NCBI GenBank assembly: GCA_014896485.1 | Contig: JADBKH010000023.1 | Coordinates: forward strand, 1-34,206 | DNA: 34,206 bases | Source: Bacillota bacterium | GTDB taxonomy: Bacteria > Bacillota > Bacilli > Bu12 | Reading direction: 5' to 3' | Shown: positions 5,721-25,718 of the stretch, one piece after another | How positions within the stretch are numbered: the first letter of the stretch is position 1 | How the letters are laid out: each line of letters starts with the position of its first letter | Made by a program: the position numbers and the translations under genes | The notes under the pieces: model-generated | What the model was told of the DNA's origin: nothing | The model's input: only the letters and a program-made list of their open reading frames with translations | The model's database searches: none

Positions 5721-5957
5721 CGCATCGCTTCCCCAAAGTTAGATGCCTCAAGTTTATCCCAAAAAAGTGTTACGGTTGTTACAGAAAAGTGTCGGAATCC
5801 CTTCACTTGTCGTCATATCCCCGCTTGCGCACAAGCGCGGATGCGTTGCGGCTGCATCGTCCCAATGTTCGGTTGAATCCCAGCGGGATGGCGATCGGCT
5901 AAACCATACCAGACATCCCCTCACTCCCTTGCCTAATCCTGTTTCATACAAAAAGCA

Positions 5958-5966
5958 TGTTACAAT
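5958..5966 (+). promoter_or_regulatory. Extended -10 promoter of the DapA-like gene
   Basis: TGTTACAAT gives an extended -10 (TG-N-TACAAT) 38 bases before the start codon; the -35 region is weak. The rest of the 283-base gap (5721-6003) holds a perfect 6-bp hairpin CGCTTG-CGCA-CAAGCG at 5822-5837 of unknown role and nothing coding that I can support. Confidence 0.4.
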
Positions 5967-6003
5967 GTTTCAAACGAAACCTGCTCAGAAAGGATGCGCT
6001 TAC

Positions 6004-6910
6004 ATGGAAATGATTCCGGCGATGTTGACCCTTTTTCGCACCGATGGGGCGCTGGATCTTGCCGCTACCCGAACGTATGCCCGTTTTCTCTGCGATCGTG
6101 GGGCTACCCAACTGCTTGTCCTTGGTTCCAACGGAAGTTTTCCCTTACTCGATCCCAGTGAGCGACAGGCTGTAGTCGAAGCTGTCATCGAAGCCGTTGG
6201 CGACCGTATTCCTGTACTTGTACAAGTAGGGGACCCAGCCACCCAGAGAGCCGTAAATTTGACGCGTTCTGCCAAACAGGATGGCGCAGCAGGCATTGTC
6301 GCCGTAACCCCAATCCTACTACGCATACGATGAGGAAAGCCTAAAAGCGTATTTTCTCGAAATCCTCGACGCAGCTGCTCCTGTGCCCACGTATCTCTAC
6401 AACATTCTCTCCCATGCGCGCAATAGCATTTCGCCACACCTTCTGCAGGTACTGGCTGCCGAAGCCTCTCATTTAGCAGGTATCAAAGACTCATCGGCTG
6501 ATTTTCAGCACGTGATAGAGATCCTCGCTACAGCGCAGACCATCGGCAGGCCCTTTTCTGTCTTCATCCGTACAGAACAATATCTATTGCCGGGATTGCT
6601 GCTCGGGACATCGGGAGGCGTTTCGGGTTTGGCCAATGTTTTCCCAGAATTGATAAGTACCTTGTTAGAGGCCTATAAATCTGGTGAAATCGTCCGTGCA
6701 CAATCGGCACACCAGAAAATCCTTGACCTTGAAAAACGGCTTTCTACCTTCCCGAGCATCAGCGCCCATTATGCTGTACTGGCACTGCGTGGAATGGAGG
6801 AGAGCTTCCCACGTCGGCCTATGCGCCCTTTAAATGCGTCAGAGACCATGCGTCTGCGGAAGGGACTTCAGGAATTGGAATTACTCGACCCATTCTCTCC
6901 TCAAGAATAA
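6004..6910 (+). pseudogene. DapA/KDG-aldolase-family lyase, broken by a +1 frameshift
   Basis: The two halves join into one DHDPS/N-acetylneuraminate-lyase-type TIM barrel of about 300 residues. The first half (from ATG 6004, site AAAGGA) carries MIPAMLTLF and LVLGSNGSFPLLDPSER, the position of the GTTGE-type loop. The second half has PTYLYNI with the catalytic Tyr, AGIKDSSADF with the Schiff-base Lys, and GTSGGVSGLANVFPE. The break is at 6308-6316 (ACCCCAATCC): removing one A restores VTPSYYAYDEESL, where family members read VTPYY. The first frame otherwise ends at TGA 6331. It faces the sugar ABC importer tail to tail across a shared terminator, so it probably cleaved a keto-sugar acid such as KDG; this is inference. 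It could be a sequencing error, since only one base is wrong. Confidence 0.75.
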
Positions 6911-11111: not shown

Positions 11112-11792
11112 ATGCGCATCGTTCTGAGTTGGAGTGGCGGAAAAGACAGCGCCTATGCATTGGCCACACTACAAGCACAGAGGGAAGAAGTTGTGGGACT
11201 GCTGACAACAGTCACGGAGACCTATGACCGCATCAGCATTCATGGTGTACGCCGCTCCCTCCTGCGCAAACAAGCAGAAGCAATTGGTCTCCCCCTCTAT
11301 GAGGTAATCTTGCCCGTTCCCTGTTCCAATGCCGAATACGAAATGCGCACGGGACAGAGGATACAGGAGCTCCTTGCAAAAGGAGTTGCTGGTTTCGCCT
11401 TTGGCGATCTCTATCTCGACGATGTTCGACACTATCGCGAAACGATGTTGGCTCAAGCAGCGGAACATGCTCCTGCGGCGTTTTTTCCGCTATGGGGTCT
11501 ACCGACACGCCAGCTTGCCCAGTAGATACTCACCAGCGGTTTTCGAGCCGTCGTCTGCTGCGTTGATCCACAACAGCTCAATTCCGCCATGGTGGGAAGA
11601 GAATACGATGCCACGTTCTTAGAAGACTTGCCTCCAAGTGTGGATCCTTGTGGTGAAAACGGAGAATTTCATACTTTCGTTTACCGTGCACCTATCTTTG
11701 CCCATCCGATCCCGCTCCAGCGCGGCCTAAACGTAGAACGTGATGGTTTTTGGTATTGTGAACTGCAAGCGTCCAACAACGCGATACCTTAG
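11112..11792 (+). pseudogene. Dph6-like PP-loop ATPase gene split by an in-frame TAG
   Basis: The N-terminal half has the PP-loop SGGKDSAYAL (about 8-17), then ETYDRISIHGVRRSLL, GVAGFAFGDLYLDDVR and FPLWGLPTRQLAQ. A TAG at 11523-11525 follows, and the same frame continues without any shift: ILTSGFRAVVCCVD, MVGREYDATFLEDLP, PCGENGEFHTFVYRAPIF and DGFWYC, ending at TAG 11790. Together they make about 226 residues, the expected size for the MJ0570/diphthine-ammonia-ligase-like family. Bacteria lack diphthamide, so the bacterial role is unknown. A single point mutation explains the break, so this is either a recent pseudogene or a readthrough case. Start ATG 11112 follows GGGAGG; GTG 11106 is too close to the site. 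Stops overlap the convergent bcrC-like gene by four bases. Confidence 0.8.
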
Positions 11793-12391
11793 CTTCGCGT
11801 ACGCGTATAGGCAACCCCGTGGCTGCTGCGGATGACCCATGTCAAATGCATCAGCCAAAACGAGAAGCGCTCCAAGTGTCGGCGCAGGGACCAAGTCGTC
11901 CATCCAATCATTGTACCGAGAGCAAATCCTCCCAAAATATCGGTCGGCCAGTGGACCCCGACTGCCACACGTGCGGCACCGCAGAGCATTGCCAACGCGA
12001 TGAGCACATAGCGAAGGCGCCTGTGTGTTCCAGCAAAGGCGGCGGCAAGTGCTGCAACAACAGTGGCATGATCACTGGGAAAAGAAGCATCGGCCACATG
12101 AGCGAGCAGGGGATGATCCATTCCTCCCAATACGACAAACGGCCGAGGGCGGTACCAAAAATGGCCGATCACAGCTGCCACCACAATCCCAGAAAGAGCC
12201 GCCACCGCCGCACAAACGATCCCTGTACGGCTGTGCAGATCTTCCCTTCGGTAAGCAAACCATGCAATCACCAGCAGGAGTGTTGAAACCTCTGGAAGGT
12301 ACGACGCCAAAAAACGGATCATTGGGTCGAAAGAAGGGTGAACCACTGTCCATTGATTCATCGCCTCGACGACCCCAATCTCCCAGCCCAC
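11789..12391 (-). CDS. bcrC: PAP2-family undecaprenyl-diphosphate phosphatase, BcrC-like
   Basis: About 200 residues with five or six membrane helices. The PAP2 phosphatase motifs are WYRPRPF, ADASFPSDHAT and AARVAVGVHWPTDILGG, giving the catalytic SerAspHis and Arg/His/Asp sets. The spacing and the HVADASFPSDH wording match Bacillus BcrC, which recycles undecaprenyl diphosphate to the monophosphate outside the membrane and confers bacitracin tolerance. Start is uncertain. I choose GTG 12391, six bases after GAGGGGGAG; an ATG at 12418 (MTFFEGE) and longer forms lack a well-placed site. It is divergent from murT-gatD, another lipid II function. Confidence 0.75.
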   Translation of the reverse strand: MGWEIGVVEAMNQWTVVHPSFDPMIRFLASYLPEVSTLLLVIAWFAYRREDLHSRTGIVCAAVAALSGIVVAAVIGHFWYRPRPFVVLGGMDHPLLAHVADASFPSDHATVVAALAAAFAGTHRRLRYVLIALAMLCGAARVAVGVHWPTDILGGFALGTMIGWTTWSLRRHLERFSFWLMHLTWVIRSSHGVAYTRTRS

Positions 12392-12581
12392 CAAACACTC
12401 CCCCTCAAAGAATGTCATTATAAGCGGGGATTGCCTCGTTTTTGGAAGTGCAAACAAAGTGTTACACTCCCATTTCATTTGTCCGTTCATTGTAACGAAA
12501 AGCTTACATCTTTGTGTTTGATGACTTGGTACGCTTTCAAGTGTTTTCATGAGAGATGCTCATTCAAGGGAAAGGGATGCG

Positions 12582-14843
12582 ATGACTGGGCAGGCAGCAC
12601 TACCGAGACGCTTCTGGTTAGCTTTTTACTTTTCGCGATGTTTACACTGGATGTTGCTTCGGGTTGGGCGAACGGCAACCAGTTTACCAGGTCTGCTCGC
12701 CTTGTGGATTGACCCTTCCTTTTTGCTTCACGCGCGAATGCATTTCCAAGGAAGCCTGCTCATCGTTACTGGAACCAACGGCAAAAGCACCACAACCTCC
12801 CTGGCAACACGCCTGCTACATGCTGCGCATCGAACAGTCATCACCAACCGTGGAGGTGCCAACATGGTCCAAGGGCTGGTGACGGCTCTGAGCAGTGCAG
12901 GAGTACGGCATCTTTTCGATCCCAATACCATCTGGCTCTTCGAATTGGATGAAGGAACAGCGCTCGAGCAACTCCCCCTGCTACATCCACAGATTGTCGT
13001 ACTGACTAATCTTTTCCGCGATCAATTGGACCGATACGCCGATATCGACACACTGCAATCCAACTTGATCATCGCCTTGCGCCGTTGCAGTGAATCCGGG
13101 TACCCATGTACGATTGTGGTCAATGCCGACGATCCCCTCAGTTGTGCGATAGCTGACACTGTGCAACTGCCCTCGTATTACTATGGAATAGATGGCTTCG
13201 ATACAGGCCAAACATCAACTCTGGACAGTAGCAATCGCATCCTTGCGGGAGAACTGGCAGTCTGCCCGGTGTGCGGTGAACCGCTTGTCTATTCGATCCA
13301 TTCGTTCGCTCAGTTTGGTCATTGGTCTTGTCCACAAAAGCACATTCATCGACCTCAACCCGATATCTCTGCTGATGTCCACGTCGACCAAGCGGGAAGA
13401 ATGGCACTGCAAATTCAAACCCGTTCCATGGACCACAGGATAAACACTTCCCTGCCTCTCTTTGGCCTGTACAACGCTTACAATGCATTGGCCGCCATTG
13501 CCGCTCTTGTACATTTAGAACCCAGTGCCATCGAACAGGCCAATGCAGCATGGGCCGATGTCCTGCCTGTTTTCGGCCGATTTGAACGTCTGCAGGGACG
13601 CCAGGTGTACCTCGTTCTCACAAAAAACCCGATTGGCATGGATCTCGCATTGGAAGAAGCGTTGCATTTCCACGGTCCGAAGCGTTTTCTCTTTGCCATT
13701 GGCGACGACTATGCAGATGGAGAAGACCTCTCTTGGCTTTGGGATGCCCATGTGGAGCGTTTGAGTGAACATCGCAGCGTTGTCGCGTTAGCCACCTATG
13801 GTTCCGGTGCACAACGTATGGCATTGCGCCTTGCCGCTGCTGGCTTTTCTGATGAGGCCATAACGGTTTTGCATACTTCTGCAACATTATCCCGCTGGGT
13901 CGCTCAATCTCCAGTGACCTGCTTTATCCTTTCGACCTATACGTTGCTCCAACCCATTCGTAAACAGCTGCTCGCATCGGCTCCTGTTCTCACAAATGCC
14001 CAAGCGAAAAAAGAGAGAATCACTTCTCCTTTTAAACCTCCGGCTTCCCACCCTGTTCCTTCCACCAAACGCATCCCATTGCGCATCGTGCACCTCTATC
14101 CACAGCGAATGGGATTGTACGGAGATCGTGGCAATGTTGCCATGCTTCGCCGCAGGGCTAAAGCAGTTGGATGGCAGGTGGAAATCACCGAGATTGAACA
14201 CTTTGAGCCTGATCTACTTCTCAAAGCCGATATCATCGTCATTGGGGGCGGCCCGGATACCGCTGAGCGTGACGTAGCCAAAGAGTTTTTTAACAATCGG
14301 AATGAGTGGCATGCGGCTGTCGAAGATGGAGTGGTATTGCTGGGTATCTGTGGAGGATATCAACTGCTTGGGGAACGTTATCTTACCCTTTCGGGAGAGG
14401 TGATGCGAGGGGCAGGTATTCAGCCATTCGAAACAATAGCGGGACGCACACGCATGGTTGGTCGTATCGCCATACGAAACACGATGGGCGATCCAAAAGT
14501 TTACTTCGTTGGGTTTGAAAACCATAGCGGCCGCACCTACGGCGTCCCTGCAGCGATGGGTCGAGTATTATATGGCCACGGCAACAACGGGGAAGATGGC
14601 CAAGAGGGGTTCTTTTACCGCAACACCATCGGTACCTATTTGCATGGTCCGGTTCTGGCGCTCAACCCTTGGCTCACCGATTGGCTGCTTGCCGCAGCCT
14701 TGGAGCGTCGAGGGATCACCTGTGCCTTGGAAGATACACCAGTCGATCCATTGGCCCAAAAGGCTCACGAACAGTATCTCAAACGCATCCTTGGCCCTGC
14801 TGTCCGTGAACCCAAACGCCCTTCCTGGTACAACGCCAGTTAA
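12582..14843 (+). CDS. murT-gatD: Fused MurT-GatD lipid II isoglutaminyl synthase in one polypeptide
   Basis: A 753-residue protein joining two enzymes normally encoded by separate genes. Residues 1-460 are MurT: a membrane-proximal N-terminus, P-loop GTNGKSTTT (64-72), NRGGANMVQGL, LTNLFRDQLDRY, VNADDP, a zinc-ribbon insertion (Cys228, Cys231, Cys250), and the DUF1727 C-domain with LTKNPIG and ADGEDLSWLWD, whose Asp388 matches the catalytic Asp of MurT. After a Pro/Lys-rich linker (about 460-498) comes GatD: LRIVHLYPQRMGLYGDRGN, IIVIGGGPDTAE, nucleophile Cys590 in LGICGGYQLLG, FVGFENHSGRTY, and His688 in GTYLHGPVL. The pair amidates the D-Glu of lipid II using glutamine and ATP. Start ATG 12582 follows AAGGGAAAGGG. 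The frame is open throughout, with no sign of a lost start codon between the halves. Confidence 0.92.
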   Translation: MTGQAALPRRFWLAFYFSRCLHWMLLRVGRTATSLPGLLALWIDPSFLLHARMHFQGSLLIVTGTNGKSTTTSLATRLLHAAHRTVITNRGGANMVQGLVTALSSAGVRHLFDPNTIWLFELDEGTALEQLPLLHPQIVVLTNLFRDQLDRYADIDTLQSNLIIALRRCSESGYPCTIVVNADDPLSCAIADTVQLPSYYYGIDGFDTGQTSTLDSSNRILAGELAVCPVCGEPLVYSIHSFAQFGHWSCPQKHIHRPQPDISADVHVDQAGRMALQIQTRSMDHRINTSLPLFGLYNAYNALAAIAALVHLEPSAIEQANAAWADVLPVFGRFERLQGRQVYLVLTKNPIGMDLALEEALHFHGPKRFLFAIGDDYADGEDLSWLWDAHVERLSEHRSVVALATYGSGAQRMALRLAAAGFSDEAITVLHTSATLSRWVAQSPVTCFILSTYTLLQPIRKQLLASAPVLTNAQAKKERITSPFKPPASHPVPSTKRIPLRIVHLYPQRMGLYGDRGNVAMLRRRAKAVGWQVEITEIEHFEPDLLLKADIIVIGGGPDTAERDVAKEFFNNRNEWHAAVEDGVVLLGICGGYQLLGERYLTLSGEVMRGAGIQPFETIAGRTRMVGRIAIRNTMGDPKVYFVGFENHSGRTYGVPAAMGRVLYGHGNNGEDGQEGFFYRNTIGTYLHGPVLALNPWLTDWLLAAALERRGITCALEDTPVDPLAQKAHEQYLKRILGPAVREPKRPSWYNAS

Positions 14844-14982: not shown

Positions 14983-16368
14983 TTAAGGCCTTGTATATAG
15001 ACTCCCGGTGTTTTGACTGAAGACACGTCGGTTGGCCATGCCGGAAAGGTAGTCTATCTGTGCCTGTTCTGGCCATGAAATGGCGCCGTAATTGCCGACA
15101 ATGTACGTCATGTTATAGGGACCATCGGCAGGTGAAGTCAGAAAGGTAGGAGCTACCGACTGGAAGTATCCCTTCAAATCGGTTGGAAGGTTCTTACTGT
15201 TGTCACTTAAAAGCAGCGGCGCATGAAACCCAAGGTGGGAGAGAATGGCCGAAGCGACTGCAGCTTGCCAATCGTTTTGCTGGATCACCGTAAAACCGTG
15301 GCCAGGTCCCGTGATATTCCACCCCACCATTCCCATGGGATCCCACATCTTTGCAAAGGCGATGCTGGTCTCCATTGGGGTATCCTGAGGAGGTTGGTTG
15401 AAATCAACAGCATCGTCGTTCGTGATACGAACCACGTTGCCGTACTTCGCCAATATCTGCATGACTTGACGCGAAACTTGCTGTGGCCCACCGAACACAT
15501 AGATGTTAGCGTGACCCATGCGCCGCTTTAGCGCATCGACAGTTGACGCAGGCACACTGTCTTTGGTTACCCACAGTAGTCCGGCAGGCATATGTGAAAC
15601 CCAGTGCGTCGCAGGAAGAACGTACTGCCATGCCTGCGTCGCTCCGATCATCACGTCCATCACACCATTGCCTCCAGTGGAAGCCGAAGTTTCCATGGCA
15701 GGCACACCAAGATCTGGGTTTTGGATTTTCCCGTAATAAGCATCGATTTTATTGGCCAAATCATAATCGTTTGAGGCAACGATGGTATCGCACTTGAGGC
15801 CAAGTTGCTCCACCTGATGAACAACAGCAGCGTTAGCAGCATGGCCAACAGCAATGACATCGACATTCTTGTCTCGAATTATTCCGGTATCACCCAAACG
15901 TTTGATCTCATTGAGCGTAACCTGAGGAATGCCATTCGGCTCCACAAAAAGGATGGGCGCATCATCGGGAAAATGGATAAGCGGTGTGGCACTGATAGCT
16001 GCCAACGGATCGTCCGGGGTTACTAAAATAACCCCCCAGGGACGGTCACCAACATTGTTGTCGATATTCGGAGCATCTTTAGGGATTGCAGCAGTGTAAA
16101 TGTGCTGCGTAACCGAGACAGCCAATTGGAAGGGGTCATTGCCATAGAATCGCGTCGTATACTTGGTATCTGCATTGATTAAGGTAGGTTCTTCAGGAGG
16201 AGAGGGGACCTGGAAATCTGGACCGGAAGGCTTGGCAACGTTTGACGGGGAAGAGCTTTGGGAAGCTGCATACGAGGGTGGGAGTAACCCCAAACCGCTG
16301 ACAACCCCTGCCCCAGCCGAAAACGAAGCAATGATGGATCCAACAAGAAGCAATGTGTAGCGTTTCAC
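14983..16368 (-). CDS. Secreted cell-wall-binding-repeat (CWB2)-like protein
   Basis: A 461-residue exported protein. The signal peptide (KRYTLLLVGSIIASF, ending near SYAASQ) is followed by a Pro/Ser-rich stretch and two domains with alternating strands typical of cell-wall-binding repeat 2 proteins: WGVILVTPDDPLAAISATPL, DAPILFVEPNGIP, VDVIAVGHAAN, GNGVMDVMIGATQAW, ANIYVFGGPQQVS, HAPLLLSDN and MTYIVGNYG. Such repeats usually attach proteins non-covalently to wall polymers; here no extra catalytic domain is present. Start GTG 16368 follows GGAAGG by seven bases; the longer reading adds a non-signal tail. A badly decayed paralogue lies at 31735-32916, which proves a past duplication. Confidence 0.75.
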   Translation of the reverse strand: MKRYTLLLVGSIIASFSAGAGVVSGLGLLPPSYAASQSSSPSNVAKPSGPDFQVPSPPEEPTLINADTKYTTRFYGNDPFQLAVSVTQHIYTAAIPKDAPNIDNNVGDRPWGVILVTPDDPLAAISATPLIHFPDDAPILFVEPNGIPQVTLNEIKRLGDTGIIRDKNVDVIAVGHAANAAVVHQVEQLGLKCDTIVASNDYDLANKIDAYYGKIQNPDLGVPAMETSASTGGNGVMDVMIGATQAWQYVLPATHWVSHMPAGLLWVTKDSVPASTVDALKRRMGHANIYVFGGPQQVSRQVMQILAKYGNVVRITNDDAVDFNQPPQDTPMETSIAFAKMWDPMGMVGWNITGPGHGFTVIQQNDWQAAVASAILSHLGFHAPLLLSDNSKNLPTDLKGYFQSVAPTFLTSPADGPYNMTYIVGNYGAISWPEQAQIDYLSGMANRRVFSQNTGSLYTRP

Positions 16369-16400
16369 GATAAGACCTTCCTCCGCTAGTAGATAGGATG

Positions 16401-16429
16401 ATGCTACCATATATTACCTATTAATCCAA
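16401..16429 (-). promoter_or_regulatory. Possible promoter of the CWB2-like gene
   Basis: On the minus strand, TTGGAT and TAGCAT are spaced 17 bases apart, 33 bases ahead of the GTG start. Both hexamers are partial matches. Confidence 0.35.
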
Positions 16430-23839: not shown

Positions 23840-25639
23840 CTATTCCAAGATCCCCAAAGCACGCAACTTCTCTTCAGGAACCACTCCATTGGGCCAGCCA
23901 CGCACTTCGTAGTATTCGGGCAGCATCTCATTTAAATGGCTAACCATTCCAGCACTTCCGCCCGTTCCCGGTTCCTTTAAAAAGCGTGGGGGTAACGTGT
24001 CATCTGCCTGGGTAAATCCAGCCAACTGGTTATAGTACCGCTCAAGGGTGTAGATACGTTCACCAATGGTCAGAACATCTTCAGGTGTAATCGGAATTCC
24101 GGTCATTCCCGTGTACTGCTCGGCATACTCTTCTGCACTTTCCGCAAAAGCAGAGAATTTGCACAAATCGAGACAATCTGAAAAGGCATGCAGATCCTGG
24201 AATGTCTTGAGTAGTGCCGCCTTCCCTTCTGTCACTGTTCGATCGACCGGCTGGGGAATCCCCATCATTTCGGCAGCGATGGTGTAGCCACGCAGATGAC
24301 AACCTCCACGGTTAGAGGTGGCATAGGAGAGGCCCATTCCTTGTACTGCGCGAGGATCATAGGCGGCAATGGCCTGTCCCTTGACAACGTTTGCAAGCTC
24401 TGGATGGCCACATCGTGCTGCCAAACGCGCTGGACCTTCGGCCAGCAGATCGCCGATACCTTCTCGAACAGCTGTTTTCGTCAGCGCCGCGATCATCGCA
24501 TCTGCATCTCCCCAGGTTAGACCAGCATCTAGTGCCCCTATCTCCTGGAGTTCCATTGCTGTCGACAGGGCATTGCCCATCTCGATGGTATCTAAGCCAA
24601 ACTCGTTGCACAAATCGATCATAAACGCAATCGCATCTCGGTTTCCGTTCCCACAGTTCGCACCCAATGCCCACGCTGACTCATATTCGAATGATTCGAC
24701 ACGTACCTTATACGGCCCTTCTTTGACCTCGACCTCTTTCTTGCAAGCGACGGGGCAAGCGTGGCAAGTCGGTTCACTGACCAAAAGATGCTCACGGACT
24801 GCTTCTCCGGAAATCGCTTCGGCCTGATCAAAGTCACTGCGGCGACCGTTGTAGGTGGGCACGCCCCCGACCACATTCATCATGTTCATGAGCACGTTGG
24901 TTCCGTAGACAGAAAGACCACCTTTGTTTGGTGCCGTAACAGGTGAGCTCATGATCGCCTTGAGTCCCTGCGTACGCGCCACTTTGAATGTTGCTGCGTC
25001 AGGAGGCTTGGGCATCTGTTTCTCATTGCTTTTGATCACAATGGCTTTCAGATGTTTGCTCCCTCCAACGGCACCCGTTCCTCCGCGGCCAGCCGCACGG
25101 TCGTTCTCGTTGATCCAGCCCGCAAAACGGACCAGATGCTCTCCTGCTGGACCAATCGCCATTACCGAGCACTCAGCACCATGGCGCTGTTGAAGGGTGT
25201 GCACTGTTTCACGGACACCCAAACCCCAAAGATCGGTAGCATCTTTGAGCGTGACTGTGCTATTTTCGACAAATGCATAGACCGGGCGTTCTGCTTTGCC
25301 ACGAAAAAGCAATCCGTCGAAACCCGCCCATTTGAGTTTCGCTGCGGTCCAACCACCAATATGAGAATCCGTGACCGTTCCCGTCAATGGCGAACGCGTC
25401 ACCACAGCCATTCGTCCACTCATGTTAACCTGTGTTCCTGTCAGCGGACCGGTCATCATGCAAAGCAGATTCTCTGGTGAAAACGGTTCTACTTGGGGAC
25501 CGTTGTCAAGCACAAATTTGACACCTAACCCACGACCACCGATATATTTACGTGCCAACGCTTCATCCATAGGCTCGTACCGCACGGTTTGTGTCGTGAG
25601 ATCGATGAAAGCAAGACGATTGGCATATCCCCCGTACAC
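23840..25639 (-). CDS. aor: Aldehyde:ferredoxin oxidoreductase (tungstopterin enzyme)
   Basis: A 599-residue member of the AOR family, which oxidises aldehydes to acids with ferredoxin using a tungsten bis-pterin and a 4Fe-4S cluster. The N-terminal domain starts YGGYANRLAFIDLTTQ and has YIGGRGLGVKFVLDN; pterin-contact motifs include AAGRGGTGAVGGSKHLKAIV. The cluster cysteines are Cys292, Cys295 and Cys299 (CHACPVAC) and Cys493 in DCLDLCKF; all four are present. AYDPRAVQGMGLSYATSNRG is also typical. Start GTG 25639 follows GGAGGGGTG and begins where the family begins (MYGGY); the longer reading adds a Cys-containing tail without support. It has its own promoter and terminator. Such enzymes are oxygen sensitive, so it hints at anaerobic or micro-oxic metabolism. 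Confidence 0.92.
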   Translation of the reverse strand: MYGGYANRLAFIDLTTQTVRYEPMDEALARKYIGGRGLGVKFVLDNGPQVEPFSPENLLCMMTGPLTGTQVNMSGRMAVVTRSPLTGTVTDSHIGGWTAAKLKWAGFDGLLFRGKAERPVYAFVENSTVTLKDATDLWGLGVRETVHTLQQRHGAECSVMAIGPAGEHLVRFAGWINENDRAAGRGGTGAVGGSKHLKAIVIKSNEKQMPKPPDAATFKVARTQGLKAIMSSPVTAPNKGGLSVYGTNVLMNMMNVVGGVPTYNGRRSDFDQAEAISGEAVREHLLVSEPTCHACPVACKKEVEVKEGPYKVRVESFEYESAWALGANCGNGNRDAIAFMIDLCNEFGLDTIEMGNALSTAMELQEIGALDAGLTWGDADAMIAALTKTAVREGIGDLLAEGPARLAARCGHPELANVVKGQAIAAYDPRAVQGMGLSYATSNRGGCHLRGYTIAAEMMGIPQPVDRTVTEGKAALLKTFQDLHAFSDCLDLCKFSAFAESAEEYAEQYTGMTGIPITPEDVLTIGERIYTLERYYNQLAGFTQADDTLPPRFLKEPGTGGSAGMVSHLNEMLPEYYEVRGWPNGVVPEEKLRALGILE

Positions 25640-25688
25640 AATATCACCCCTCCGCGATTCTGAGCAGTACTCACAACGATGCAACTTC

Positions 25689-25718
25689 ACTGTAACATTC
25701 ATCGCCGATCATGGACAA
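25689..25718 (-). promoter_or_regulatory. Promoter of the AOR gene
   Basis: Minus strand -35 TTGTCC and extended -10 TGTTACAGT are 18 bases apart, about 50 bases ahead of the GTG start. AOR is therefore not tied to the upstream DUF1874 transcript. Confidence 0.45.

Follow-up and report, generated by a model that had tools for sequence, protein, structure and literature searches.

A single stop-free reading frame of 753 codons in a genome of the Bacilli (Bacillota bacterium, GTDB lineage Bu12; GenBank assembly GCA_014896485.1, contig JADBKH010000023.1) carries a full MurT followed by a full GatD, and the observation of a fusion, made in a preliminary description of this DNA, is hereby confirmed. 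The 753-residue product is probably a lipid II isoglutaminyl synthase that unites both functions in a single chain and works as the MurT/GatD heterodimer does. The whole stretch of contig that was analysed, 34,206 nucleotides in length, is termed the window below, and the features discussed are collected in Table 1.

Table 1. Coordinates of the fused gene, its parts and the divergent neighbouring gene in the window
Feature	Position	Strand	Evidence
murT-gatD fusion gene (753 aa), predicted to encode a single-chain, glutamine-hydrolysing lipid II isoglutaminyl synthase	12582..14843	+	
Purine-rich AAGGGAAAGGG, likely ribosome-binding site 5' of ATG 12582	12566..12576	+	sequence read directly
MurT part, residues 15-464	12624..13973	+	NCBIfam, alignment
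Interdomain linker, residues 469-495, Pro/Lys/Ser-rich, pLDDT <50	13986..14066	+	
GatD part, residues 497-717 (D515, C590, R624, H688, P690)	14070..14732	+	NCBIfam, alignment
Divergent PAP2 phosphatase gene, undecaprenyl-diphosphatase-like	11789..12394	-	Pfam, NCBIfam

Domain architecture and predicted fold

The longest stop-free run in shuffled sequence of the same base composition was 247 codons, which excludes a chance origin of the murT-gatD frame; an alternative, earlier start exists at ATG 12549. Searches of the window with Rfam gave no match, and a scan of it for promoters and terminators gave no signal above chance.

From the N- to the C-terminus, Pfam recognizes Mur_ligase_M (residues 62-206), MurT_C (346-455) and GATase_3 (501-693). 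The best NCBIfam models are those of MurT and GatD, with scores far under their equivalog cut-offs, and CobQ models match the GatD part weakly. The relatives in the PDB are the MurT and GatD chains of S. pneumoniae, S. aureus and S. pyogenes. The N-terminal part thus combines a Mur ligase middle domain and MurT_C (DUF1727) with a P-loop and the aspartate of the SWxWD motif; the C-terminal part combines GATase_3 with the catalytic cysteine and histidine, a proline two residues after that histidine and a glutamine-capturing arginine. These matches, together with the uninterrupted frame, bear out the proposal of one frame with both enzymes. A single frame takes the place of the two adjacent genes that usually encode the enzyme as a heterodimer, and this does not disqualify the protein, since rare merged ORFs are on record.

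An AlphaFold2 model of the fused protein (pTM 0.79, mean pLDDT 81) shows two confidently folded parts with a disordered segment between them, coinciding with the Pro/Lys-rich linker of the preliminary description. It was computed from another alignment than two large ones, in which MurT was wrongly aligned with GatD rows. Comparison by Foldseek matched the model to solved chains of both enzymes, the TM values, normalised by target length, reaching 0.77 for MurT and 0.89 for GatD, and thus the fold prediction that had been proposed as a check agrees with the domain assignment.

Sequence-structure correlates of the two parts

Catalytic and interface residues were located by reference to the structural work on the S. 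aureus and S. pneumoniae enzymes (PMC6113224, PMC6085368), and 75 murT-gatD pairs of other genomes served as the yardstick of conservation. The MurT part displays the motifs GTNGKS (P-loop, 64-69), ELDE (121-124), RDQLDR (146-151), KNP (348-350) and W385-x-W387-D388. D388 aligns to D349 of S. aureus, and within the retained SWLWD motif either Trp385 or Trp387 is the counterpart of W360 of S. pneumoniae. In the GatD part, C590, H688, P690 and R624 correspond to C94, H189, P191 and R128 of stand-alone GatD, and D515 and the interface Gly517 are also kept. The P-loop, Asp388, Cys590 and His688 were hence correctly placed in the preliminary description.

Among columns with a conservation of 90% or more, the MurT part retains 65 of 72 and the GatD part 44 of 49. 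The departures in the former are distributed over the P-loop (T69S, giving GTNGKS against the usual GTNGKT), the loop situated at the interface in S. pneumoniae (G153A and E154D, where D154 aligns by motif to Glu143 of that species), the zinc ribbon (F245 for Leu and C253K) and the C-terminal MurT domain (N374G and R409G). Those in the latter are E561A, Q562E, F569 for Leu, K694L and E725A.

The zinc insertion reported earlier is there in part: Cys228, Cys231 and Cys250 are kept, but the fourth position, a cysteine in 72 of 75 relatives, is occupied by Lys253, so that the site is degenerate rather than an intact Cys4 ribbon. Such a ribbon is found in only a subset of MurT members (PMC6113224) and is not a requirement. 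His254 and His256 lie close by, and either could replace the lost ligand in a putative Cys3His site.

Genomic neighbourhood

The preliminary description regarded the locus as devoted to the lipid II cycle, a view that is not upheld by the neighbouring genes. The longest frame of the divergent PAP2 gene starts at 12550, but a start that suits the family better is a GTG near 12394, preceded by GAGGGGGAG; its product scores under the curated cut-offs of the undecaprenyl-diphosphatase NCBIfam families. A PAP2 relative lies close to murT-gatD in just 1 of 80 related loci, and the adjacency therefore carries little weight; the two genes probably do not belong to any shared system. The further neighbours, namely a diphthamide-synthase-like gene, a DeoR regulator, sugar-ABC-transporter genes and a gene for a cell wall binding domain 2 (CWB2) protein, include no cell-wall precursor gene.

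The CWB2 gene (14983-16410, - strand) is convergent to the fused gene. The diphthamide-synthase-like gene (PF01902; 11106-11793, + strand) has an in-frame TAG at 11523, past which the protein seems to run on in frame, pointing to a pseudogene, an error or read-through. A frameshift near 6310 breaks a gene of the DHDPS family (5743-6910, + strand) in two; this gene is either a pseudogene or affected by a sequencing error. Elsewhere in the window, a complete aldehyde ferredoxin oxidoreductase (23840-25702, - strand) hints at anaerobic metabolism in this lineage of Bacilli.

Phyletic distribution and relatives

We surveyed about 850 genomes for single chains with both parts, in three sets that overlap: 399 genomes of Bacilli, 398 of Bacillota and 83 others. 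Barring one frame across a gap of N, no other stop-free frame with both halves was present among the matches listed, a survey in which a very divergent fusion, as a weak match outside those listed, could be missed. A scan of genome contigs with a GatD alignment recovered 80 loci from GTDB genomes. In 77 named loci both parts were found on one strand; none of these is fused, and murT precedes gatD in 76 of them, as it does in the fused gene. These searches thus yielded no second instance in the Bacillota among the matches listed and the 77 loci. Scanning contigs with the fused protein alone confirmed no close relative, and a scan of viral sequences found no relative of it. In its own genome the fused gene is the only match to PF08353 (MurT_C) and to P0001, and neither MurT nor GatD was seen a second time.

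Several apparent fusions were rejected upon inspection. In G064, G114, G236, G572 and others, separate genes occupy the same frame with a stop between them; in G801 the reading frame spans an assembly gap of N; and matches on Priestia and Streptomyces plasmids are each two genes. A long murT frame in G837 was likewise set aside, its gatD being separate. The 823 residues of this last frame (L190:46-2517, Bacillota) comprise an apparent multi-pass membrane (transporter-like) protein and MurT, with an uncertain start, and the frame is overlapped by the separate gatD.

In a phylogenetic tree the fused protein has a terminal branch of 1.48, against a median of 0.32. Its position as sister to a Saccharibacteria sequence joins it to a very long branch, and we distrust this placement.

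The fusion had been thought undescribed, but Figueiredo et al. reported rare merged murT-gatD ORFs in Actinobacteria in 2012, with three cases (PMC3267633, Discussion and legend of Figure S1). These belong to another phylum and can be set beside the present protein by description only, their sequences being absent from the text of that paper. The protein studied here is apparently a further case of independent origin in a different phylum. Three papers on MurT/GatD structures and a pangenome study of archaeal murT/gatD make no mention of a natural fusion.

Is the junction genuine?

An error of sequencing or assembly might have joined two genes, with murT in reality ending in the linker and gatD initiating separately, for instance at TTG 14079, from which translation would give MRIVHLYP..., an N-terminus typical of GatD. 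The linker contains a run of six A, and one extra A would end murT at TAA. Two other genes of the window are interrupted, one by a frameshift and one by an in-frame stop, so errors or gene decay do occur on this contig. Moreover, murT and gatD are separate in all other pairs examined, and this is the sole genome of its order among those compared, so that the frame lacks confirmation from a close relative. When every possible one-base substitution, insertion and deletion between 13930 and 14085 was considered, none created both a stop for murT and a start for gatD preceded by a Shine-Dalgarno sequence. The gatD starts that single edits do open, mainly ATG 13996 and TTG 14079, are every one devoid of it. 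Furthermore, the in-frame linker has a composition typical of interdomain linkers, unlike frame +1, which is hydrophobic, and frame +2, which bears a stop, and both halves are otherwise intact across the 753 codons. Taken together, we judge such an artefact unlikely. A genuine fusion would most likely have arisen from an ordinary murT-gatD pair of adjacent genes in which murT lost its stop and gatD its start.

Predicted function and mechanism

The covalent MurT-GatD protein proposed earlier still accounts best for the sequence, and it entails a fixed 1:1 stoichiometry. The layout is that of MurT, a linker of about 30 residues and GatD. By analogy with the heterodimers, the GatD part would hydrolyse glutamine by means of Cys590 and His688, with Asp388 of the MurT part completing the site, and ammonia would move from the GatD part to the MurT part. 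There, ATP would phosphorylate the alpha-carboxylate of D-Glu in lipid II, and the activated residue would be converted to D-isoglutamine. We infer the substrate, the transfer of ammonia and the persistence of an uncleaved chain.

A genuine fusion might instead act on another Mur-type substrate, or be impaired. The long branch accords with this, as do several changes at near-invariant sites, among them N374, R409, the threonine of the P-loop and the last of the zinc cysteines. However, the glutaminase and interface residues are retained and the gene is the sole copy in its genome. In S. pneumoniae, loss of Glu143, the site of D154, has a minor effect, and a mutant of all four zinc cysteines keeps residual activity. 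We hence regard a departure from standard lipid II amidation as very improbable.

With the MurT/GatD heterodimers (S. aureus, 6gs2/7q8e; S. pneumoniae, 6fqb; S. pyogenes, 9sq9) the predicted synthase shares both complete domains, the murT-then-gatD order, the catalytic Cys, His and Asp, R624, the SWLWD motif and the GatD glycine at the interface. It differs from them in its single chain and linker, the missing fourth zinc cysteine and the alteration of several near-invariant residues. In amidotransferases of the CobQ type, a synthetase part is followed by a C-terminal GATase_3 in one chain. The fusion has this arrangement in common with CobQ/CobB-type enzymes, but its synthetase part is a Mur ligase.

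Conclusions

On balance, we favour the view that a lineage of Bacilli, represented by one genome at the level of an order, relies solely on a fused MurT-GatD whose zinc site is altered, a fusion which originated independently of the Actinobacterial forms and works as a single-chain amidase. The known chemistry is unchanged by the fusion, and merged ORFs have been on record since 2012; the kind of protein is known and this instance is new, a novelty that is real but modest. If this view is correct, free dissociation of MurT and GatD would be unnecessary. As a natural single-chain form with fixed stoichiometry, and perhaps with greater stability owing to the link, the protein would also lend itself to structural studies of an essential drug target and to work on its inhibitors.
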